From contig CAIRJF010000035.1 of assembly GCA_903878805.1 (NCBI GenBank), positions 62,001-126,000 of the forward strand: 64,000 nucleotides of DNA, in the 5' to 3' direction. Positions 680 through 10,631 of this stretch are shown one piece after another (within the stretch, counting starts at the first letter, position 1; every line of letters starts with the position of its first letter). The DNA comes from an uncultured Verrucomicrobia subdivision 3 bacterium (lineage in GTDB: Bacteria > Verrucomicrobiota > Verrucomicrobiia > Limisphaerales > UBA11358). The position numbers and the translations under genes were made by a program. The notes beneath the pieces are model-generated. The model worked only from the letters and a program-made list of their open reading frames with translations, did no database searches and was not told the origin of the DNA.

Positions 680-2452
680 ATGCAGTTAAAAATTAAAATT
701 TTATTTTTGCTAGTCGCCAGCGCACTATTCAGCGGTGCGGCGTTCGCGGCCTCGTTCACCGCGTCGCTTGACCGCGACAGCATCGCGGTTGGAGAAAGCG
801 TGACGCTCTCACTTGCGTTTGAGGGCGCGCAGCCGCGCACGATTCCGATGCCGAGCGTGCCGGGATTACAGATTACGCAAGCTGGCACATCACAGTTCGT
901 CAACGTGGTCAACGGCGCGATGACTGCGACCGTCACCGTCACTTTCAATGTGACCGCGACGCAGGCAGGCGAGTTCACCATTCCCGCGCTAACGGCGGAC
1001 GTGAGCGGTCAATCGCTCACCAGTTCGCCACTGAAATTGTCCGTGGCCGCCGCTGCTGCGCCGACGGCTGACGCGGTGAATTCCGGCAACGAAATCGCGT
1101 TCATGAAATTAATTTTTCCAAAACCGAGAATTTACGTTGGCGAAACAGCGGTGGCACGGCTCGAACTTTATTTGCGCGAAGACGTGCAGAACCTCGCGAA
1201 CTTTCAACTGACCAGTTCGCCCACGGAGGGTTTTAGCGCGGGCAAGCTGGTGGAATTGCAAAACCAACGTCGTCGCGTGCAGGTCGGCAACCGCGCCTAC
1301 ACCGTGATTCCGCTGGCGGTTCCGCTCACGGCGGTGCGCGCTGGCGACGTCGAACTGGGGCCGTTCACCGCCAACGCCGTCGTCGTTTTGCCCTCGGAAA
1401 ATCAGGGCGGAAATCCGTTTTTCCGGATGTTCAATCAGGGCGAACAGCGGCAGGTCACACTCGCCACGGAAAAAGTGGTCGTGCCTTCATTGCCCTTGCC
1501 AACCGCCGACCAACCCGCAAATTTTTCCGGCGCGGTAGGTGATTTCTCCATGACCGCGACCGCCGGGCCGACCACGCTTACCGTCGGCGACCCCATCACC
1601 ATGCGCGTGCAAATCGCCGGTCGCGGCGCGCTTGACGCGATCACGCTGCCGGTGCAGGACTCATGGCAAAATTTCAAAACGTATCCGCCCACCGCCAAGC
1701 TGGAGACCAGCGACCAGTTCGGTTTCCAAGGAACGAAAACCTTTGAGGAGATCGTCTCGCCGCTGAATTCTGACGTGCACGAGTTGCCGGCGTTTTCGTT
1801 TTCATTCTTCAATCCGGACGATGGAAAGTTTCACACGCTGACGCAGCCCGCGCTGCCGCTCACCATCAAAGCCGCTGGCGCGACGCCGCTGCCGACGCTG
1901 GCTGCGACCAAAACTTCTGCGCCTGAAAATCAACCGCCGCAGGACATTTTGCCTATCAAAGAAAATCTCGGCGCGCTTGAAAAATCCGCCACGCCATTGA
2001 TTGCCTCGCCGAACTTTTTAGCGCTGCAAAGTTTGCCGGTGTTGGCGCTGCTGACCGCAATCGTCTGGCGGAAACGCGCAGATAATCTGGCGAATAATCC
2101 GCGCCTGCGCCGTCAACGTGCTGTGGCACAGGTCGTCGCCATGGGTTTGAACGATCTAAAAAAATTCGCTGCCGAAAACAAGCCCGACGAATTTTTTGCC
2201 ACGCTATTTCGTTTGTTACAGGAGCAACTTGGCGAGCGTCTGGATTGTCCGGCCACCGCCATCACGGAAGCGATTGTCCCCGACCACGCGCTTTTGCGCA
2301 CGGCGCCGTTGGCGTTGCGCACGGCGCTGCACGAGCAATTTCAATTGTGTAATCAAGCCCGCTACGCGCCGGTGCGCGGCAGCAGCGAATTGAATTCCGT
2401 CGCGACACAGTTTGAGAAATTGCTCGGTGAACTCCAGAACTTGAAGTCATGA
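680..2452 (+). CDS. batD: BatD-like protein, first gene of Bat/aerotolerance operon
   Basis: The 590-residue protein has a signal peptide (MQLKIKILFLLVASALFSGAAFA), a large periplasmic region of beta-sandwich repeats typical of BatD (VGESVTLSLAFEG at residues 25-40, VGDPITMRVQIAGRG near 305), one C-terminal membrane segment (LQSLPVLALLTAIVW) and a cytoplasmic tail of about 120 residues. The frame is open from a TTG at 665, but ATG 680 gives a clean signal peptide. The stop overlaps the next ATG (ATGA), so the genes are probably translationally coupled. BatD proteins are thought to work with the VWA proteins BatA/BatB at the inner membrane; the exact role is not established. Confidence 0.88.
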   Translation: MQLKIKILFLLVASALFSGAAFAASFTASLDRDSIAVGESVTLSLAFEGAQPRTIPMPSVPGLQITQAGTSQFVNVVNGAMTATVTVTFNVTATQAGEFTIPALTADVSGQSLTSSPLKLSVAAAAAPTADAVNSGNEIAFMKLIFPKPRIYVGETAVARLELYLREDVQNLANFQLTSSPTEGFSAGKLVELQNQRRRVQVGNRAYTVIPLAVPLTAVRAGDVELGPFTANAVVVLPSENQGGNPFFRMFNQGEQRQVTLATEKVVVPSLPLPTADQPANFSGAVGDFSMTATAGPTTLTVGDPITMRVQIAGRGALDAITLPVQDSWQNFKTYPPTAKLETSDQFGFQGTKTFEEIVSPLNSDVHELPAFSFSFFNPDDGKFHTLTQPALPLTIKAAGATPLPTLAATKTSAPENQPPQDILPIKENLGALEKSATPLIASPNFLALQSLPVLALLTAIVWRKRADNLANNPRLRRQRAVAQVVAMGLNDLKKFAAENKPDEFFATLFRLLQEQLGERLDCPATAITEAIVPDHALLRTAPLALRTALHEQFQLCNQARYAPVRGSSELNSVATQFEKLLGELQNLKS

Positions 2453-3189
2453 AAATCTGGCTCTCCATTTTGATCACGCTGGTCTGCGCCGGAAAAATTC
2501 TGGCGGCGGACGTCGCTGCGGATTTCTCGGCGGCGAACAAACTTTACGCCGAAGGAAAATTTTCCGACGCCGCGAACGCTTACGAAAAAATCATCCAGTC
2601 CGGCGCGCAATCGCCGGCGCTCTGGTTCAATGCGGGCAGCGCGGAATTCAAAGCCGGACATCTCGGCAAAGCCATTGCCGCGTATCGACAGGCCGAATTA
2701 CTTGCGCCGCGCGATGCAGAACTGCGCGCAAATCTGGCGTTTGTCCGTAACCAAGTCCAAGGCGCGACGGTTCGTGAAAGCAGTTGGCAGAATTGGGTCG
2801 GCTCGCTCACGCTCAACGAAGGCACCGTGCTGACCGCGGCGCTATTTTGGCTTACGCTGGGAATTTTTACGGCTCGGCAGCTTCGTCCGGCGCTGGTGCC
2901 GAAGTTGCAAGGCGTCACGCGGATTTTAGTCGTGCTGACCATTTTTTCTGCGACCGTGCTGGGCTTGCAGGCGGCGAATCATTTTTCCAATGGCACCGCC
3001 GTGGTGACGGTGGCCGAGGCGACCGCGCGCAGCGGTCCGTTTGACGAAGCGCAGAGTGCGTTCACCGCGCGCGACGGCTCGGAACTGTCTGTCTTGGATC
3101 AACGCGACGGCTGGGTGCAGGTCGCCAACAACGCTGGGAAAAGCGGCTGGCTGTCCACGAAACTGGTTTCCGTTTTGCCGGGCGCGTGA
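2449..3189 (+). CDS. BatE-like TPR and SH3 domain membrane protein
   Basis: The 246-residue protein has a signal peptide or anchor (MKIWLSILITLVCAGKILAA), two to three TPR units at residues 25-105 (AANKLYAEGKFSDAANAYEK, LWFNAGSAEFKAGHLGKAIA), two membrane helices around 125-175 and a C-terminal bacterial SH3 domain (ATARSGPFDEA...GWVQVANNAGKSGWL). This TPR-TM-TM-SH3 order is that of BatE in Bacteroidetes-type Bat operons. Its ATG overlaps the batD stop. It probably sits in the inner membrane with its SH3 domain in the periplasm. The family assignment is firm, the function is inferred from the operon. Confidence 0.82.
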   Translation: MKIWLSILITLVCAGKILAADVAADFSAANKLYAEGKFSDAANAYEKIIQSGAQSPALWFNAGSAEFKAGHLGKAIAAYRQAELLAPRDAELRANLAFVRNQVQGATVRESSWQNWVGSLTLNEGTVLTAALFWLTLGIFTARQLRPALVPKLQGVTRILVVLTIFSATVLGLQAANHFSNGTAVVTVAEATARSGPFDEAQSAFTARDGSELSVLDQRDGWVQVANNAGKSGWLSTKLVSVLPGA

Positions 3190-3252: not shown

Positions 3253-4242
3253 ATGAGCACAGGAATCAACGCCATCAACGAAGCGGTCAAGGAAGCGAGT
3301 GCGTTCACGCATCCGCTGTTTAACGAACTCGGCAAGGTCATCGTCGGCCAGCAATATCTCACCGAACGGCTCGTCATCGGGCTGCTGGCCAACGGCCACG
3401 TTCTGCTTGAAGGTGTGCCCGGTCTGGCCAAGACGCTCGCCGTGAAATCCATGGCGAACTGCATCAGCGTGAAATTCTCGCGCCTGCAATTCACGCCGGA
3501 CATGCTGCCCGCCGACGTCATCGGCACGCAGATTTACAATCCGCAGTCCGGCGGCTTCACCACGCGCAAAGGCCCGGTCTTCGCGAATCTTGTGCTCGCC
3601 GACGAAATAAACCGCGCGCCGGCAAAAGTTCAAAGCGCGTTGCTCGAAGCGATGCAGGAAAAGCAGGTCACGATTGGCGAAAATACTTTCAAGCTCGAAG
3701 AACCGTTTCTGGTTTTGGCGACACAAAATCCCATCGAGCAGGAAGGCACGTATCCATTGCCCGAAGCGCAGGTTGACCGCTTCATGCTCAAGCTCAAGAT
3801 CGGTTATCCGACGCGCGCGGATGAGCGGCAGATTCTCGAAACGATGGCGAAAACTTCCGGCCAGCCGACTTGCAATGCCGTCGTCACGCCGGCGCAAATT
3901 TTGAAGGCGCGCGAAATCATCAACGACATTTACGTGGACGACAAGGTGAAGGATTACATCGTGGACCTCGTCTGCGCCACGCGCGACCCGGACCATTACA
4001 AGATCGCGGTGAAGGATTTCATCCAGCTCGGCGCGTCGCCGCGCGCGACCATCGCGCTCACGCTGGCGGCCAAGGCCTACGCCTTCCTGAAAGGCCGCGG
4101 CTACGTGACGCCGCAGGACGTGAAGAGCATCGGCATGGACGTGCTGCGCCACCGCGTGGCCATCACTTACGAAGCCGAGGCCGAGGAAAAAACCAGCGAA
4201 ACGGTCATCCAGAAAATCTTTGATGAACTGCCTGTGCCGTGA
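3253..4242 (+). CDS. moxR: MoxR-family AAA+ ATPase
   Basis: The 329-residue cytoplasmic AAA+ ATPase has Walker A GVPGLAKT (residues about 56-63), Walker B VLADEINRAP, sensor region LATQNPIEQEGTYPLPEAQ and the C-terminal lid domain of MoxR proteins. MoxR ATPases are chaperone-like and usually act with VWA-domain proteins encoded beside them, as here (BatA/BatB-like genes downstream). The start ATG at 3253 lies 63 bases after the BatE-like stop. The usual next gene, DUF58, is separated from moxR by about 1.7 kb of foreign-looking sequence. Confidence 0.95.
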   Translation: MSTGINAINEAVKEASAFTHPLFNELGKVIVGQQYLTERLVIGLLANGHVLLEGVPGLAKTLAVKSMANCISVKFSRLQFTPDMLPADVIGTQIYNPQSGGFTTRKGPVFANLVLADEINRAPAKVQSALLEAMQEKQVTIGENTFKLEEPFLVLATQNPIEQEGTYPLPEAQVDRFMLKLKIGYPTRADERQILETMAKTSGQPTCNAVVTPAQILKAREIINDIYVDDKVKDYIVDLVCATRDPDHYKIAVKDFIQLGASPRATIALTLAAKAYAFLKGRGYVTPQDVKSIGMDVLRHRVAITYEAEAEEKTSETVIQKIFDELPVP

Positions 4243-4286
4243 GGAAACGCTTGAGTCAACCAATACGTAAGCGATAATTAAGCGAA

Positions 4287-4619
4287 GTGAAAAATTTCAC
4301 CACAGAAATCAAACATGGCGATTCTCACAAACGTATGAACACATTTAGAATTGGCTACAAAAGTTTTTATCGTGAAACCAGTGACCATCACTCCGATTAC
4401 ATTGAGGCAGATAACAGAATCGCCGCACTGAAAGTTTTTGCCAAAGAACACAAAATACCAAAGGCAAGCCGCCAGCAACCTGACAAATGGAAGTGGTGGG
4501 ATGGCGAATGGCTTTATGAATTTCGGGTTGTTGAACCTGTAAAAATAATTCCGTGTCCGCATTGCAGCGGAAAAGGAGAGATTACGGCTTTTGAGAATGA
4601 ACCCAGCGCCAAAAAATAA
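4287..4619 (+). CDS. small hypothetical protein with C-terminal CxxC
   Basis: This protein of 110 residues from GTG 4287, or 94 from ATG 4335, is not recognised. It is rich in aromatic and charged residues (KWKWWDGEWLYEFRVVEP) and has one CPHCSGKG motif near the C-terminus, which resembles half of a DnaJ-type zinc knuckle. No membrane segment is seen. It overlaps the next gene by about 25 bases, which suggests co-expression. Base composition is visibly AT-richer than the flanking moxR and DUF58 genes, consistent with acquisition. The start is uncertain because no clear ribosome binding site precedes either candidate. Confidence 0.6.
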   Translation: MKNFTTEIKHGDSHKRMNTFRIGYKSFYRETSDHHSDYIEADNRIAALKVFAKEHKIPKASRQQPDKWKWWDGEWLYEFRVVEPVKIIPCPHCSGKGEITAFENEPSAKK

Positions 4620-5793
4620 ATTAGGGACTTTTCCTGAACGCTTGGTGCATCTGATTTCTGAATCAGATTTCATCCGCTTTCAGCACGTTCTGAATGAGCC
4701 AAACATTTTCAAAATTGTTGGCAGGTCGCATTACGAGAGGTGGCATTCTTGTTTTTGGGGTTGGTTGCTTGATCCGAACGGAACGCATTTGCTTTCAGAC
4801 CACGCACTGATTCGTCTTTTGCTCCTTCTCGCCGACGAGCGAATGCTGAAGCCAGCCAGTCAACCTCGTTTCAAACTTCTTCAGACTCTTCCGACTATTG
4901 AGTTCAGAGATGTTCAAGTCACGCCGAACGAGTTTATTTCAAATGAGAGGAGTGTGGATGGAGTTGGACGCTTTGATATTTTCCTTACTGCAAGTTACAA
5001 AGACGGCTTGGGCAGGTCAGGACGGCTAAACGTAATCTTTGAATTCAAAATTGACAGCAAGCCCACCAAGCAGCAATCGAAGAAATATGCAGATTGGATT
5101 TTCTCCGCTCACCCAAAAGACGATAACTTGCTTGTTTATGTTAATCCGGTGTTGGGTGCGAGTTCAGAAGAGACTGTCGGCGACAAGCGATGGCATTGCT
5201 TAGACTACCAATTACTGAACGACAGAGTTCTTGCCCCGCTTTTGGAGCACCCGGCCTTGAATGACAAGGTGAAACCCTTCATCATTCAATACATCAAGAA
5301 TCTAAAAATCCGACAGAAAGGAGTCAAAATGGCTATCACCGACGAAGAAAAGAAAATGGCATTGGCGCTATATGAAAAATACAGCGACGTATTTGACTCA
5401 ATTTACGATGCACTGAAGGCGACGAACGCAATCAGCCACAGCACTTCAGAGACAGCTCCGCCTCGCGGTCGGGCAAAGGGCCGACTTGCAGTAAAGGTTG
5501 ACGGGAAAGTTTTCGCCGGAGAGATGGTCAAAGACCTTTTTGAAAAAGTTCTGCGTCACCTTGTTGATTCAGGTGGCATTCGCAAGTTGCCCTTGCCTTG
5601 GGGGACGACCAATCAAAGATACATTGTCTCAAACGAAAAAAATCCAACGCATCCCAATCGGCGTCCATTCTTCTACCCAGTCAAATACCGACAATATTCC
5701 ATTGAAAGCCATTATGACCGAAAGCGAGCGTTGCAAGTTCTCGACGAGTTGTGTCAAAAGCTTGAATTGAAATTTGAAGTCATTGAGGTCTGA
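4597..5793 (+). CDS. PD-(D/E)XK nuclease superfamily protein
   Basis: The 398-residue protein begins with a region (HYERWHSCFWGWLLDPNGTH, residues 46-66) like the PDDEXK_4 group of uncharacterised nucleases. The putative active site is D127 (GRFDIF) followed by E149-F-K151 (IFEFKID), with a glutamine-rich helix after it (TKQQSKKYADW), as in this fold. The C-terminal 110 residues form a separate basic domain (AKGRLAVKVDGKVFAGE...RYIVSNEKNPTHP) that may bind DNA. TTG 4591 is an alternative start. The gene overlaps the preceding small one, lies inside the Bat operon and is AT-richer than its neighbours. A defence or mobile-element role is plausible but unproven. Confidence 0.72.
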   Translation: MNPAPKNKLGTFPERLVHLISESDFIRFQHVLNEPNIFKIVGRSHYERWHSCFWGWLLDPNGTHLLSDHALIRLLLLLADERMLKPASQPRFKLLQTLPTIEFRDVQVTPNEFISNERSVDGVGRFDIFLTASYKDGLGRSGRLNVIFEFKIDSKPTKQQSKKYADWIFSAHPKDDNLLVYVNPVLGASSEETVGDKRWHCLDYQLLNDRVLAPLLEHPALNDKVKPFIIQYIKNLKIRQKGVKMAITDEEKKMALALYEKYSDVFDSIYDALKATNAISHSTSETAPPRGRAKGRLAVKVDGKVFAGEMVKDLFEKVLRHLVDSGGIRKLPLPWGTTNQRYIVSNEKNPTHPNRRPFFYPVKYRQYSIESHYDRKRALQVLDELCQKLELKFEVIEV

Positions 5794-5953
5794 CGGATCA
5801 ATTCGTTGGAATCAAATCGTTGAGCTTAATTCGGAAAATTCCAAAGCCAAAGATTAAAAAAGTGAAAACTCCAAAGCCTTAACAGGGTTTCAGCCTACAT
5901 TTTAATTCCATCGAATTCGAGGGAATTAGAAGTTTAGCAATTTGCATTTTCCC

Positions 5954-6862
5954 ATGATTCCCCGCGAGATTCTCAAAAAAATCCGGCAGATCGAGCTGCG
6001 CACGAACCGCATCGTGACCGAAACGCTCGCGGGCCAATACCATTCCGTCTTCAAGGGCCAGGGCATGAACTTCGACGAGGTGCGCGAATACCAGCCCGGC
6101 GACGACGTGCGTGCGATTGACTGGAACGTCACCGCGCGCATGAATCATCCGTTCATCAAGAAGTTCGTCGAGGAACGCGAACTCACGCTCATGCTCGTCG
6201 TGGACGTGAGTGGCTCGGGCCTGTTCGGCTCGCGCGACCAGTCCAAGCGCGAACTCGCCGCCGAGATCGCCTCCGTGCTCGCCTTCTCCGCCATCCGCAA
6301 CAACGACAAAGTCGGCCTCATCCTCTTCAGCGACGAGGTGGAAAAATTCATCCCGCCACGCAAAGGCCGCAGCCACGTCCTACGCGTCATCCGCGAAGTT
6401 TTATTTTTTGAGCCGAAGCGGCGCGGGACGGATTTGAAGGTGGCGCTGGATTTTTTCATGCGCGTGCAGTCGCACAAGGCGGTGACCGTGGTGGTGTCGG
6501 ATTTTCTCACGGCTGATGGTGGCGGCGCGTTGCCGAAGGGATTGCAAACGTCGCTGCGCATGGCGAATCGCAAGCACGACGTCGTGGCGGTGCAAATCAC
6601 GGACAAGCACGAGTTGGAGTTGCCCGCACTCGGGCGCTTGATTTTGGAAGACGCCGAGACCGGCGAAGTTTTGGAAGTGAACACCGGTAGTGCCAGCAGC
6701 CGCGACGCGTTCGCGTTGCGCCAGCAAAAGCAAATCGGTGAACTGGCGAAACAATTCCGTTCCTCGGGCATCGATTCGATCCAGTTGCGCACGAACGAGG
6801 CCTACGGCGCGACGCTCGGCAAATTTTTTGAGACCCGTGAAAAGCGGAGGTTGCGCGGATGA
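5954..6862 (+). CDS. DUF58 domain protein of the Bat operon
   Basis: The 302-residue protein has the DUF58 signature FDEVREYQPGDDVRAIDWNVTARM (residues about 38-60, broken here by listing only its start and end) followed by a VWA-like fold with VVDVSGSGLFG. DUF58 proteins are regularly encoded between MoxR and VWA genes. ATG 5954 is preferred over an upstream in-frame TTG (5942) because family members start MxPxEIL. Its stop overlaps the next start (ATGATGA). The gene probably belonged directly after moxR before the 4.3-5.8 kb insertion. Confidence 0.92.
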   Translation: MIPREILKKIRQIELRTNRIVTETLAGQYHSVFKGQGMNFDEVREYQPGDDVRAIDWNVTARMNHPFIKKFVEERELTLMLVVDVSGSGLFGSRDQSKRELAAEIASVLAFSAIRNNDKVGLILFSDEVEKFIPPRKGRSHVLRVIREVLFFEPKRRGTDLKVALDFFMRVQSHKAVTVVVSDFLTADGGGALPKGLQTSLRMANRKHDVVAVQITDKHELELPALGRLILEDAETGEVLEVNTGSASSRDAFALRQQKQIGELAKQFRSSGIDSIQLRTNEAYGATLGKFFETREKRRLRG

Positions 6863-7407
6863 TGACGAATGCCACAGCGCAGTCTGGCACCGCGGCCGCC
6901 AACGACATCCGCGACATCAAGCCGCCCATCGAAATTCCCAATGATTGGGAATGGCTTTGGTGGGTGATTGCTGTGCTGACCATGGTTGCCTTCGCGATTT
7001 TGATCTGGCGCTGGTGGCAGAAGCGGCGCGCGCTGACCGTGTTTGTGCCGCCGGTTCCCGCGCACGTGCGCGCGAAACAAAAATTGGACGAGGCACTGGC
7101 GCTCATCGCGCAGCCGAAGCCATTCGTCATCGCGGTGTCCGATACAGCGCGGGCGTATCTGGAAGAGCGTTTCAATTTCCGCGCGCCGGAGCGGACCACG
7201 GAAGAATTTCTGCGCGAGTTGAGCGGCACGGATCTGCTGGCGAAACCGCAAAAGGAAAGTTTGGGGGGATTTTTGCAGAGCTGCGATTTGGTGAAGTTCG
7301 CCAAATATGAACCGGGCGAAAAGGAGTTGCGTGAATTGCACGGTGCAGCTTTGAACCTGGTTGAGGAGACCAAGCCGGCGGAAGTCCAAAATCCTGAAAC
7401 GAAATGA
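6859..7407 (+). CDS. DUF4381-like membrane protein of the Bat operon
   Basis: The 182-residue protein has a single N-terminal membrane helix (WEWLWWVIAVLTMVAFAILIW, residues 29-50) preceded by a short Pro-rich periplasmic segment (DIKPPIEIPNDW) and followed by a cytoplasmic helical domain (TARAYLEERFNF, TTEEFLRELSG). This is the DUF4381 layout seen between DUF58 and BatA genes. Starts and stops overlap with both neighbours, so it is part of one transcript. No catalytic motif is visible. The function is presumably structural within the BatABDE/MoxR complex. Confidence 0.8.
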   Translation: MMTNATAQSGTAAANDIRDIKPPIEIPNDWEWLWWVIAVLTMVAFAILIWRWWQKRRALTVFVPPVPAHVRAKQKLDEALALIAQPKPFVIAVSDTARAYLEERFNFRAPERTTEEFLRELSGTDLLAKPQKESLGGFLQSCDLVKFAKYEPGEKELRELHGAALNLVEETKPAEVQNPETK

Positions 7408-8402
7408 CGTTTGCGCATCCATGGCTGTTGTTGTTGCTCCTGCTGCTGCCGCTGGCGGCGTGGCTGAAGGGGCGGCGCGGTTCGTCACCGGCGTTTGTCT
7501 ATTCATCGGTGAAACTGGTAGCGGGACTCGCGGGTGCGCGGCGTTCGCGGGCGGGAAATCTTTTGGCGGCACTGCGTTGGTTGGCGCTTGCGCTGTTGAT
7601 TGTGGCGCTTGCGCAGCCGCGCTTGATGAAAAGCACGACCGAAGTGAAAGCCAGCGGCGTGGATATTGTCGTGGCGCTCGACATGTCGGGCAGCATGATT
7701 TCGGAAGATTTTGAAGTGCGCGGCGAACGCGTGAACCGCTTCAACATGGCGCGTTCGGTTTTGAAAAAATTTATCGACCAGCGCCCGAACGATCGCATCG
7801 GCTTGGTTTTGTTTGCGTCGCAGGCGTTCATCGGCACGCCGCTGACGTTGGATCACGATTTCTTGCAGGAAAATCTGGATCGGCTCGAGATCGGCGCGAT
7901 TGAGCAAAATTCCACGGCGATCGGCGACGGCCTCGGCACGGCCATCAACCGGTTACGCGACTTGAAGGCGAAAAGTAAAATCGTGATTCTCATGACGGAC
8001 GGACAAAATAATTCCGGTAAGCTGGATCCGTTGCTCGCAGCGGAAGCGGCGGCGGCGATGAAAGTGAAAGTTTATACGGTCGGCATCGGCGAACAAGGCA
8101 CCGCGCCGATGCCGGTGTTCATGAACGGTCAGAAAGTCGGCTACCAAAATGTGCCGGTGGATGTGGACGAAAACACGCTGCAAAAAATCGCGGCCAAAAC
8201 CGGCGGAAAATATTATCGCGCGGACAACGCGGAAAAGTTCCAGCAGATCTACGCGGAAATCGACAAACTTGAAAAGACGGACGCGACGGTCAAAAAATAT
8301 ACGCAGTTCGACGAACTATTTCCGTGGTTTGTGGCGGGCGGACTCGCGTTGCTGCTGCTGGAACTGGGATTGGGCCAGACCATTTTGCGGAGGTTGCCAT
8401 GA
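7404..8402 (+). CDS. batA: VWA domain membrane protein, BatA-like
   Basis: The 332-residue protein has two N-terminal membrane helices (residues 5-20 and 53-70), a von Willebrand A domain from about 88 to 280 with an intact MIDAS motif DMSGSM and later threonine/aspartate ligands (TPLTLDHD, LMTDGQNN), and a C-terminal helix (WFVAGGLALLLLELGLG). This is the BatA architecture. The MIDAS site should bind a divalent metal and a protein partner in the periplasm. Coding overlaps the neighbours by 4 bases on each side. Confidence 0.93.
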   Translation: MTFAHPWLLLLLLLLPLAAWLKGRRGSSPAFVYSSVKLVAGLAGARRSRAGNLLAALRWLALALLIVALAQPRLMKSTTEVKASGVDIVVALDMSGSMISEDFEVRGERVNRFNMARSVLKKFIDQRPNDRIGLVLFASQAFIGTPLTLDHDFLQENLDRLEIGAIEQNSTAIGDGLGTAINRLRDLKAKSKIVILMTDGQNNSGKLDPLLAAEAAAAMKVKVYTVGIGEQGTAPMPVFMNGQKVGYQNVPVDVDENTLQKIAAKTGGKYYRADNAEKFQQIYAEIDKLEKTDATVKKYTQFDELFPWFVAGGLALLLLELGLGQTILRRLP

Positions 8403-10051
8403 GATTTGAGCATCCAAATTTACTATGGCTGTTGCTGGTGATTCCGCCAGCGCTCGCGCTCTTTTTTTGGTGGAGCGAACGCACGCGGCAAAAATTACTA
8501 ACGCAATTTGTTGAGGCGCGGTTGCTGGCGACCTTGACGGCGGGAATTTCGCCGGCGCGCAGAAAACTTCGTTTTACGTTGATTGTCGCATCTGTGGCGC
8601 TGCTGCTCATTGCGTTGGCACGACCGCAATACGGTTATGACAAAGAAGAAGTGCGGCAAAACGGACTCGATATCGTCGTGGCGGTAGACACTTCCAAATC
8701 CATGCTCGCGACGGACATTCCGCCGAGTCGGCTCGGGCGCGCCAAACTCGCGGCGTTGGAATTGATGCAGACCGCAAAGGCCGATCGGCTGGGACTCGTG
8801 GCGTTCGCGGGCGAGGCGTTTCTCTCGTGTCCAATGACGATTGACGACACGGCATTTCAGCAAAGCGTGCAGGCGCTCGATGTGAATTCCATTCCGCAGG
8901 GCGGCACGGCGTTGGCCGAGGCCATCAAAACCGCGCTCGCCGCCTTCAAAGAAAACGGCAATCACAAAGCGCTTGTGCTTTTCACCGACGGCGAAGATAA
9001 CGACGAAGGCGCACTGGCGGCGGCGCAAGCGGCGGCGAAGGAAGGCCTGAAAATTTTTACCATCGGCATCGGTTCGGCGGAAGGCACGCTGGTGCAAATT
9101 CCCGATGGCAATGGCGGTTCGGATTACATTCGCGATGAAAAAGGTCAGGTGGTGAAAACGAAGTTGAACGAAAGTCTGCTCCAGCAGATCGCCGGCGCGA
9201 CGGGCGGGTTTTATCTGCCTTTGCGCGGCGCGGATACGATCAGCACCCTTTACGAACGTGGCCTCGCGCCGTTGCCGAAATCGGAAGGTGCGGAAAAACT
9301 GGTGCGTCGCTATCACGAACAATTTCAATGGCCGCTGGCGGTGGCGCTCCTGCTGTTGTTTGTGGAATTTCTTTTGCCTGAACGGTCTTTGCGGACGGCG
9401 ACCAAGTCCAAAGTCATCGCTAACGCCATGATTTTATTGGCTGTATTTCAAATTTCATTTTCTGCCAACGCTTCGCCGGCCGGCGCGTTGCGTGAATACA
9501 AATCGGGAAATTACACGAACGCGCTGAACGAGTTCACCAAGCTGGCGGAAGTGCAGACGAACGATTTGCGTCTGGTCTTCAACGCGGGCGACGCGGCATA
9601 TCGCGCGACGAACTTTGACCTCGCGCAAAAATTATTCCAGCAAGTGACGCTCTCGCCGGATCTGAAATTGCAGCAGCAGGCGTTTTACAACCTCGGCAAT
9701 GTGCAATTCCAGGTCGCGAAACAAGCGCAGGATTTGGACGGATTAGAACAAGGTTTTGACGCGGCGGCAAAAATTTATTCACGCGCGGTGCTGCTCAACA
9801 CGAACGATGCGGACGCGATTTTTAATTGCCGATTCGCGCAAGGTGCCGCCGAGCAGGTGCGCGCGCTCAAGGCGGCTTTGCGGTCGGCCAAGGCAAGCGC
9901 GGATCAGGCGGTGCAGCGTGCGGAATTTCACACGGCGTTTGAGATCATGCAAGGCCTGACGCAGAAATATAAAATCGCCGGCAAACAATTTGAAGAGTTC
10001 ACCAAAAAATTGAAGGACATTGATGACATCGCGACTCCTCATCAGCCTTAG
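8399..10051 (+). CDS. batB: VWA domain protein fused to TPR region, BatB-like
   Basis: The 550-residue protein starts at the ATG that overlaps the batA stop (MRFEHPNLLWLLLVIPPALALF). The frame is open further upstream, but only inside batA. N-terminal helices are followed by a VWA domain (residues 85-285) with MIDAS DTSKSM, a membrane helix near 310-325 and a second one near 345-365. The C-terminal region of about 190 residues has TPR-like repeats (NYTNALNEFTKLAEVQ, QQAFYNLGNVQFQVA). It looks like a BatB protein joined to the TPR part usually found in BatC. Confidence 0.9.
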   Translation: MRFEHPNLLWLLLVIPPALALFFWWSERTRQKLLTQFVEARLLATLTAGISPARRKLRFTLIVASVALLLIALARPQYGYDKEEVRQNGLDIVVAVDTSKSMLATDIPPSRLGRAKLAALELMQTAKADRLGLVAFAGEAFLSCPMTIDDTAFQQSVQALDVNSIPQGGTALAEAIKTALAAFKENGNHKALVLFTDGEDNDEGALAAAQAAAKEGLKIFTIGIGSAEGTLVQIPDGNGGSDYIRDEKGQVVKTKLNESLLQQIAGATGGFYLPLRGADTISTLYERGLAPLPKSEGAEKLVRRYHEQFQWPLAVALLLLFVEFLLPERSLRTATKSKVIANAMILLAVFQISFSANASPAGALREYKSGNYTNALNEFTKLAEVQTNDLRLVFNAGDAAYRATNFDLAQKLFQQVTLSPDLKLQQQAFYNLGNVQFQVAKQAQDLDGLEQGFDAAAKIYSRAVLLNTNDADAIFNCRFAQGAAEQVRALKAALRSAKASADQAVQRAEFHTAFEIMQGLTQKYKIAGKQFEEFTKKLKDIDDIATPHQP

Positions 10052-10631
10052 CCTGTTGCTGCTTTGCGTCGCGCCGAAAGCTGGCGCGCAGCTCGCACCC
10101 GCTGAAGATTTTTTCAACAGCGGCGCGCAGGCTTACATTTCCAACAACATTCCGGCCGCGTTGGAGCGGGTGGAAATGGGTTTGAAGACTTACCCCGATA
10201 ACGTGAAGCTGAAGAAGCTTGAGGAATTGTTAAAACAAAAAAACCAACAGCAGCAACAGCAAAATCAGCAACAGCAACAACAGGATCAATCGCAGCAGCA
10301 AAAGTCGGACGATCAGAAAAATCAGCAGCAGAACCAGCAGCAGAAAAATTCTGATGACCAGAAGAAGCAGGACGAGCAAAAGAAAGATCAGTCGGATCAG
10401 AAAAAAGATGAGCAGCAAAAACAGCCGGAACAGCCGAAACCGGCGGAAGATAAAAAGAACGGCGACAAACCGGAAAACCAGACGGGCGAAGGTCAGCCGG
10501 TCAAGCCGGGCGAAATGACCAAGGAAGAAGCGAAGCGTTTGCTGGATGCGCAAAAAGGTAATGAGCAGATTTTTCAGTTGAAGCCGGACGGCAAGCCGCG
10601 CGACCCGAATCGTCCAGTGAAGGATTGGTAA
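10023..10631 (+). CDS. Gln-rich secreted TPR protein, BatC-like
   Basis: The 202-residue product has a signal peptide (MTSRLLISLSLLLLCVAPKAGAQ), one TPR-like unit (residues 30-70), then about 85 residues of low complexity built from Gln, Lys, Asp and Glu (10,230-10,490), and a C-terminal segment with EAKRLLDAQKG and a terminal proline-arginine-rich stretch. This TPR-plus-charged-tail form matches BatC proteins. It starts inside the end of batB (28-base overlap). The CAG/AAA-rich repeats could expand or contract by slippage. Confidence 0.82.
   Translation: MTSRLLISLSLLLLCVAPKAGAQLAPAEDFFNSGAQAYISNNIPAALERVEMGLKTYPDNVKLKKLEELLKQKNQQQQQQNQQQQQQDQSQQQKSDDQKNQQQNQQQKNSDDQKKQDEQKKDQSDQKKDEQQKQPEQPKPAEDKKNGDKPENQTGEGQPVKPGEMTKEEAKRLLDAQKGNEQIFQLKPDGKPRDPNRPVKDW

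Follow-up and report, generated by a model that had tools for sequence, protein, structure and literature searches.

Several described systems come close to the locus reported here. In defence and toxin-antitoxin hotspots and in integron cassette arrays, a fixed chromosomal site carries changing small cargo with the units standing in a row. Translational coupling by start-stop overlap and Rho-dependent polarity are known phenomena, and 23S rRNA intervening-sequence or four-helix-bundle elements are a known type. At the protein level, the nearest relatives are type II restriction-modification systems, the PADLOC entry PDC-S26, a single-gene phage defence candidate, and the Pfam family PDDEXK_4 (PF14281). 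We know of no activity for PDC-S26 or PF14281, and no paper on either was found in the literature searched (few subscription papers, no bioRxiv).

The locus lies at the junction between the moxR and DUF58 genes of a Bat operon. Like the hotspots and integron arrays, this junction is a fixed site with changing small cargo and units in a row; it differs from both in being situated inside a packed, conserved operon, in that no integrase was seen in the inserts and in that the unit boundaries are copies of the ends of the neighbouring genes. As in translational coupling, some relatives have a moxR stop that overlaps the start of DUF58, but the frame termed here the relay frame (the frame whose TGA overlaps the DUF58 start) crosses hundreds of nucleotides antisense to another gene, by way of a copied start. 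An insert between BatA and BatB encodes a protein that by eye is of the 23S rRNA intervening-sequence type, but it is antisense in a protein-coding operon and has an open relay frame. No description of a moxR-DUF58 hotspot or of relay frames was found in the literature searched (as above, with few subscription papers and no bioRxiv), and to our knowledge no hotspot has been described that sits within a packed conserved operon and has antisense cargo on relay frames.

The window, the whole 64,000-nt stretch of DNA that was analysed, belongs to a genome (G000) of 2.29 Mb in 40 contigs. Its Bat operon is arranged in the order BatD-like, TPR/SH3, moxR, DUF58, DUF4381-like, BatA and BatB, with the TPR/SH3 gene at 2449-3189, moxR at 3253-4242 (AAA_3 plus AAA_lid_2; Pfam PF07726, E = 6.5e-66), DUF58 at 5954-6862 (PF01882, E = 1.8e-83) and the last three genes at 6859-10051, all on the forward strand. 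An ORF with a long Q/K/D-rich low-complexity stretch is found at the end of the operon (10020-10631). Between the moxR stop at 4242 and the DUF58 ATG at 5954 there are two ORFs, both co-directional with the operon: ORF1 (4335-4619, 94 aa) and ORF2 (4597-5793, 398 aa), which overlap by 23 nt and are followed by a 160-nt spacer (5794-5953). GC content in the insert is 42-47% in 500-bp windows, versus about 57-61% in the adjoining genes. The sequence-only reading of this DNA had placed an inserted, AT-richer gene pair between moxR and DUF58 in an otherwise gapless operon; position and composition hold, and the other junctions of the operon are short, but 63 bp separate the TPR gene from moxR and the 160-bp spacer separates ORF2 from DUF58. 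Translation of ORF2 most likely begins at ATG 4597, inside ORF1, with TTG 4591 as a possible alternative.

ORF2 adds a new member to a candidate family that is already known. It matches PF14281 (E = 4e-13, 50.2 bits against a cut-off of 22.3) and PDC-S26 (best E = 1.4e-26, residues 15-276 against profile positions 10-240 of 397); the PDC-S26 profiles match the N-terminal two thirds of the protein and the C-terminal ~120 residues fall outside. NCBIfam and PHROGs gave no match at E <= 1. The catalytic residues D127, E149 and K151 (numbered from ATG 4597; codons 4975-4977, 5041-5043 and 5047-5049) are invariant in 9/9 aligned sequences, ORF2 and eight relatives, in agreement with the earlier assignment of a PD-(D/E)XK protein with these three residues. 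The AlphaFold2 model is of moderate confidence (pLDDT 66.7, the core better), and its predicted order of helices and strands (H93-100, E102-110, E128-135, E141-150, H158-171, E176-182) would fit an alpha-beta-beta-beta-alpha-beta core. The probable nuclease fold is supported by the Pfam match and the invariant residues. The model topology would agree with it, but Foldseek returned nothing at E <= 0.001 (best E 0.019), and its non-significant matches, MspJI and EcoO109I (E about 0.02), AspBHI and BamHI, were mixed with unrelated folds.

ORF2 has matches at E <= 0.001 in 5/146 genomes, its own included; the match is clear and full length only in G000 and in G092 (74%), where the nuclease is on a different contig from moxR-DUF58, and of the other three matches, that in G010 spans 32 residues at the edge of a contig and two are weak. 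In the GTDB collection at least eight loci carry relatives that match at 53-73% across almost the whole protein, in metagenome-assembled genomes labelled Verrucomicrobia (L146, which is the G092 locus), Deltaproteobacteria (L147, L149), Bacteroidetes (L148), Anaerolineales (L150), Planctomycetes (L151, L152) and Sulfurisoma (L153); none were found among the viral contigs, plasmids or phages searched. Directly 3' of the nuclease in three of these loci is a similar small ORF of ~71-74 aa (L146 7198-7419, L148 6079-6300, L149 3194-3409), which has no Pfam match in L146 or L149 and no counterpart seen in the window. ORF2 probably cuts foreign DNA and is probably co-transcribed with the Bat operon. 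A role in anti-phage defence is plausible from the PDC-S26 profile and the restriction-modification genes beside the L146 homologue, and family and neighbours together suggest that the protein may serve as a solitary DNA-cutting defence.

Upstream of the nuclease, the first part of the insert resembles DNA next to its homologues. Positions 4249-4323 align with L146 5760-5834 with a local score of 74, where 300 shuffles reached 32 at most, and 4270-4323 are 79.6% identical over 54 nt by blastn; the window reading MKNFTTEIKHGD, from GTG 4287, pairs with the beginning of the L146 fragment, MKIFTAEIKHGD. That fragment is a 68-aa methyltransferase piece (PF01555, 3.6e-4, below cut-off) upstream of the nuclease, and in L149 a fuller N6/N4 methyltransferase gene, which matches PF01555 at 3.5e-18 over profile positions 2-180 of 221, extends across the start of the nuclease gene. 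On this alignment, 4249-4323 would be the 5' region and first ~12 codons of a lost N6/N4-type DNA methyltransferase gene, and the window insert would stem from a METHYLTRANSFERASE-nuclease locus. Since 4249-4323 aligns to the L146 methyltransferase, the foreign sequence starts within 7 nt of the moxR stop.

In view of these neighbours, the nuclease might be a type II restriction enzyme that has lost its methyltransferase and is now inactive or reliant on one elsewhere in the genome. There are several points of likeness to type II restriction-modification: ORF2 is of the PD-(D/E)XK family, the L149 methyltransferase overlaps the nuclease from upstream, methyltransferase pieces are present in L146 and L152 (2e-10), a D12-class methyltransferase lies downstream of the nuclease in L147 (3.3e-34), and the L146 homologue has next to it, on the downstream side, an EcoO109I-type restriction enzyme (PF14511, 2.9e-63) and another N6/N4 methyltransferase (5.5e-17). 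The 5' remnant in the window points the same way. The window nuclease differs in having no intact cognate methyltransferase beside it, with about 12 codons left, yet it is full length with invariant catalytic residues; moreover, no methyltransferase was seen by eye directly upstream of the nuclease in L147, L148, L150, L151 or L153, and the L149 methyltransferase found no match in the window genome in a search run without a positive control. We regard an orphaned type II enzyme as doubtful.

The moxR-DUF58 spacing was compared over 96 loci with both genes on one contig, from searches that covered 146 genomes. The gap exceeds 350 bp in 20/27 same-genus loci (window included) and in 20/69 same-order loci; it is at most 120 bp in 42/69 of the latter, including five with a 4-nt overlap. 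When all junctions were scanned in 20 loci, gaps above 350 bp were present at moxR-DUF58 in 14/20 (L076 is listed there as 1967 through merging of a partial copy, the true gap being 2703) and at BatA-BatB in 3/19 (values of -1008 and -999 are artefacts and were scored as not above 350), and at the remaining control junctions there were none (BatD-TPR 0/15, TPR-moxR 0/16, DUF58-DUF4381 0/19, DUF4381-BatA 0/19). The moxR-DUF58 junction is an insertion hotspot: its flanks are conserved, its cargo is variable and the other junctions are mostly empty.

The cargo includes a TdeIII-type restriction enzyme (PF09520, 5.5e-68) with a C5 methyltransferase (PF00145, 2e-79) in G035; a NOV_C protein and a toxin-antitoxin pair in G012; VanY, KilA-N and a toxin-antitoxin pair in G018; an ankyrin-type protein with toxin-antitoxin genes in G001; and an IS200-like transposase in G005. 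A Pfam scan of 60 cargo ORFs, chosen from 308 listed of which many are spurious, returned ParE_toxin for 15, VanY for five and HEAT for two, and other families for single ORFs; there is no integrase among the 25/35 Pfam families listed for them. One cargo ORF matches PADLOC PDC-S22 (5.4e-129). Five toxin seeds located 20 ParE-type toxins or toxin pieces, spread over 18 junctions and without exception antisense to the operon. Sense-oriented cargo was also observed: a PIN-type ORF (by eye) in L113 and, within the paralogous operon of L187, a toxin-like pair.

Some further observations concern such junctions. The "empty" spacers of L005, L009 and L013, about 110 nt long, look like an imperfect inverted repeat (GAAGGAAGAATG... 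/ ...CATTCTTCCTTC) that could be a REP- or MITE-like palindrome, and the L070 junction holds an IS200/REP-associated transposase. A second moxR-DUF58 pair occurs in the window genome, its two genes about 2.9 kb apart (L195, G000:C25:5700-10700). In L046 (G009), a tyrosine-integrase-like ORF near DUF58 (3656-4939, by eye, within 3613-8477) was set aside: the 46-nt direct repeats at 3613 and 8432 resemble, by eye, an attachment site of the tRNA type, and the 17 kb upstream of DUF58 showed no moxR.

Many junctions contain partial copies of the flanking genes. Twenty copies of the DUF58 5' end, all beginning at the ATG and 44-85 nt long, were counted in 18/46 analysed junctions, together with seven copies of the moxR 3' end in six junctions, whose ends lie no more than 2 nt from the moxR stop; weaker internal matches (L045, L100, L103) were not counted as copies. 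DUF58 codons 1 to about 27 of the window correspond to the stretch duplicated in relatives, and the window junction itself has neither a DUF58 5' copy nor a moxR 3' copy.

Across the 41 occupied junctions, the relay frame is free of stops for a median of 690 nt upstream of DUF58. It is open for at least 300 nt in 29/41, as compared with 4/41 and 1/41 for the other two frames, and 17 of these 29 long frames pass through a DUF58 5' copy. An ORF of 146-390 codons begins in 18/20 copies and finishes exactly at the next start codon; the two others are L045 at 512 (34 codons) and L054, where the copy contains N. Relay frames cover 18/20 antisense ParE-type toxins; the toxin of L073 adjoins moxR and the first of L101 is missed by 2 nt. 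Coverage was also assessed by the longest ORF-free stretch. On the operon strand this has a median of 24 nt, compared with 115 nt for the other strand and 139 nt for dinucleotide-shuffled sequence; it is below the junction's own shuffle mean in 40/41 cases. The operon strand is the better covered in 15/18 antisense-toxin loci and the less covered in L040, L073 and L101.

The window is among the 12/41 junctions with a relay frame shorter than 300 nt. Its insert is in sense and is the least relay-like: the longest ORF-free stretch, 164 nt, is the maximum of the 41, yet is below its own shuffle mean of 198, and in the spacer the frame ending on the DUF58 ATGA is open only from 5883 (72 nt), with a TAA immediately before (5880-5882). 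This lone TAA breaks a frame otherwise open from the end of the nuclease gene (5787) to the ATGA, and could be the mark of a decayed relay, or chance.

Relay frames thus exist, and two sets of homologues served as controls, which for the most part agree with the relay reading. In the genus, the antisense frame stays open over the whole toxin and for 250 nt or more past the toxin start in 13/13 junction toxins versus 1/13 elsewhere (Fisher p = 2.7e-6), counted over the 30/37 listed matches that have loci and excluding toxin frames below 240 nt (L119 and L133 at junctions, L144 and L135 elsewhere). The lone positive elsewhere, L120, is antisense between two co-directional transporter genes, which we take by eye to be livH and livM, and has a relay of its own, an ORF at 1438-2118 that overlaps the stop of the first gene and the start of the second. 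Leu/Ser codons that place a stop in the antisense frame number 0/164 in junction toxins versus 11/139 elsewhere (p = 1.5e-4; L120 and L134, antisense among co-directional ORFs, excluded). The second control is the BatA-BatB insert of G001, G005 and G018, a 117-aa antisense gene, presumably four-helix-bundle-like as recognised by eye, on a frame that ends on the BatB ATGA. Over 30 loci of this family, the frame ends at an ATGA in the six most similar (these three plus G015, G058 and G138, the latter placed beside DUF58 by contig coordinates only) and in 0/24 others. In L076, L078 and L083, the antisense gene between BatA and BatB stands between repeats ATTGCCGATTGCCGATTG / CAATCGGCAATCGGCAAT, and in L076 and L078 the relay ORF overlaps both neighbouring genes.

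A relay frame is also present in the paralogous moxR-DUF58 operon of G129 (L187), where a copy of the 5' end of that paralogue itself (MTITELLESVRRVEVRT...) precedes the toxin and the frame ends at a GTGA, the start of a second 5' copy, followed by a sense two-gene pair and then the full gene; in L193 (G121) a DUF58 copy is present and the frame ends at ATGA. Among seven other non-junction toxins, long antisense frames are missing in the closer L184 and L185, free-standing toxin relatives in which the frame closes at the antitoxin side, and in the more distant L189 and L191. Other distant ones have open frames (L188, 276 nt; L190, 329 nt, a broken toxin; L192, 530 nt), which end on no recognised gene start.

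The open antisense frames might instead be a by-product of GC-rich codon usage and the common descent of one ParE-type lineage. Even away from the junction, the phase-0 antisense frame often has no stop across just the toxin (6/13), and the long frames of L188, L190 and L192 occur outside the junction. The toxin and four-helix-bundle controls are both confounded by ancestry, because the junction toxins are nearly one clade, with L120 within it, and the six BatA-BatB-type inserts form a close group, sharing 81-100% identity with the query where the other loci examined reach at most 64%. Against a by-product stand the 13/13 versus 1/13 contrast once at least 250 nt are required, the closure of the L184 and L185 frames, and the like behaviour of an unrelated, four-helix-bundle-like gene (6/6 versus 0/24). 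Two findings at the junction itself argue in the same direction, namely the better coverage of the operon strand than of the toxin-coding strand (15/18) and the exact ending of 18/20 copy-borne ORFs on a start codon. We consider a by-product unlikely.

The copies at the unit boundaries could also be read as attachment-site duplications left by a site-specific recombinase that targets the DUF58 5' end. Their common start at the ATG, their end at nt 81-85 in several genomes and the presence of moxR 3' copies would suit such an enzyme, but the DUF58 copy ends vary from 44 to 85 nt, the paralogous operon L187 copies its local DUF58 5' end instead, and no recombinase was seen in the inserts save the IS200-like protein of L070 (25/35 cargo families listed). 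This explanation appears improbable.

ORF1 and the nuclease had been proposed as a coupled small protein plus nuclease, a two-gene defence module. The two ORFs are adjacent and overlap by 23 nt, and the CxxC protein described in the sequence-only reading is there, its motif at 4554-4577 (CPHCSGKG) being in fact CxxCxGxG. However, ORF1 has no significant match in the eight other nuclease loci, a co-occurrence of 0/8, nor in any other fetched locus outside the junction (183 loci, those eight included); it was found in 1/146 genomes, its own, and not in the phage, plasmid or viral collections. Its only Pfam hit is a sub-threshold one to Anti-TRAP (E = 0.076). ORF1 occupies the place where the rest of the methyltransferase gene would be, and it most likely starts at ATG 4335 and not at GTG 4287, because 4249-4323, with that GTG, aligns to the 5' end of the L146 methyltransferase fragment. 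Because ORF1 lacks a relative and its GTG start region appears to be a methyltransferase remnant, the pair does not look like a conserved module, and a functional two-gene system is quite improbable. Conservation of the pair within the Bat operon, for which only position and orientation speak, is refuted by the occurrence of the nuclease in 5/146 genomes (two clear and full length) and of ORF1 in 1/146. A conserved position would have counted against the sequence-only reading; the data support it in so far as the insert is foreign, accessory and of a nuclease family.

The reading we prefer is that of an acquired methyltransferase-nuclease fragment at a recurrent insertion site that tolerates cargo through readability of the operon strand, and we assign it a probability of roughly 0.6. 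The window insert would be a horizontally acquired fragment with a complete nuclease gene, the first dozen codons of a methyltransferase gene and an orphan ORF. At the junction in general, DNA carrying cargo and a DUF58 5' end would recombine into the DUF58 5' coding region, with the old start remaining upstream. Inserts that leave long untranslated RNA would be lost, because transcription would end or DUF58 become uncoupled, and readable inserts would survive; the site would seem cargo-tolerant because the retained inserts leave the operon strand translatable. The window nuclease and other sense cargo would be translated directly and need no relay, which leaves about 44 nt (to the remnant GTG) plus 160 nt of the window insert untranslated. 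Antisense toxin-antitoxin cargo would ride an open relay frame, usually from a DUF58 5' copy to the DUF58 start codon (ATGA). Ribosomes could traverse most hotspot inserts without interruption, which perhaps keeps the operon working, and translation of the relay frames would prevent Rho-dependent polarity or keep translational coupling. Coupling is not obligatory, since 3/5 empty genus junctions checked are not coupled.

In wider terms, the data suggest a class of operon insertions in which antisense genes, such as ParE-type toxin-antitoxin pairs or the four-helix-bundle-like gene, ride a sense-strand relay frame that spares the operon from polarity, the frame running from a copy of the downstream gene's 5' end, or from the upstream stop, to the downstream start codon. 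Candidates for it are seen at moxR-DUF58, at the paralogous moxR-DUF58, at BatA-BatB and between the putative livH and livM, and we hold the existence of such a class to be slightly better than an even bet. Ribosomes crossing the insert would prevent polarity, and a conserved operon could therefore host defence or addiction genes.

If this is true, foreign genes can lodge in tight, conserved operons, even antisense, without silencing them, because the other strand is kept readable. It would also provide a rule, from sequence only, for detecting such operon insertions, and would hint at where defence genes outside islands may hide. How operons survive insertion would then become directly testable.
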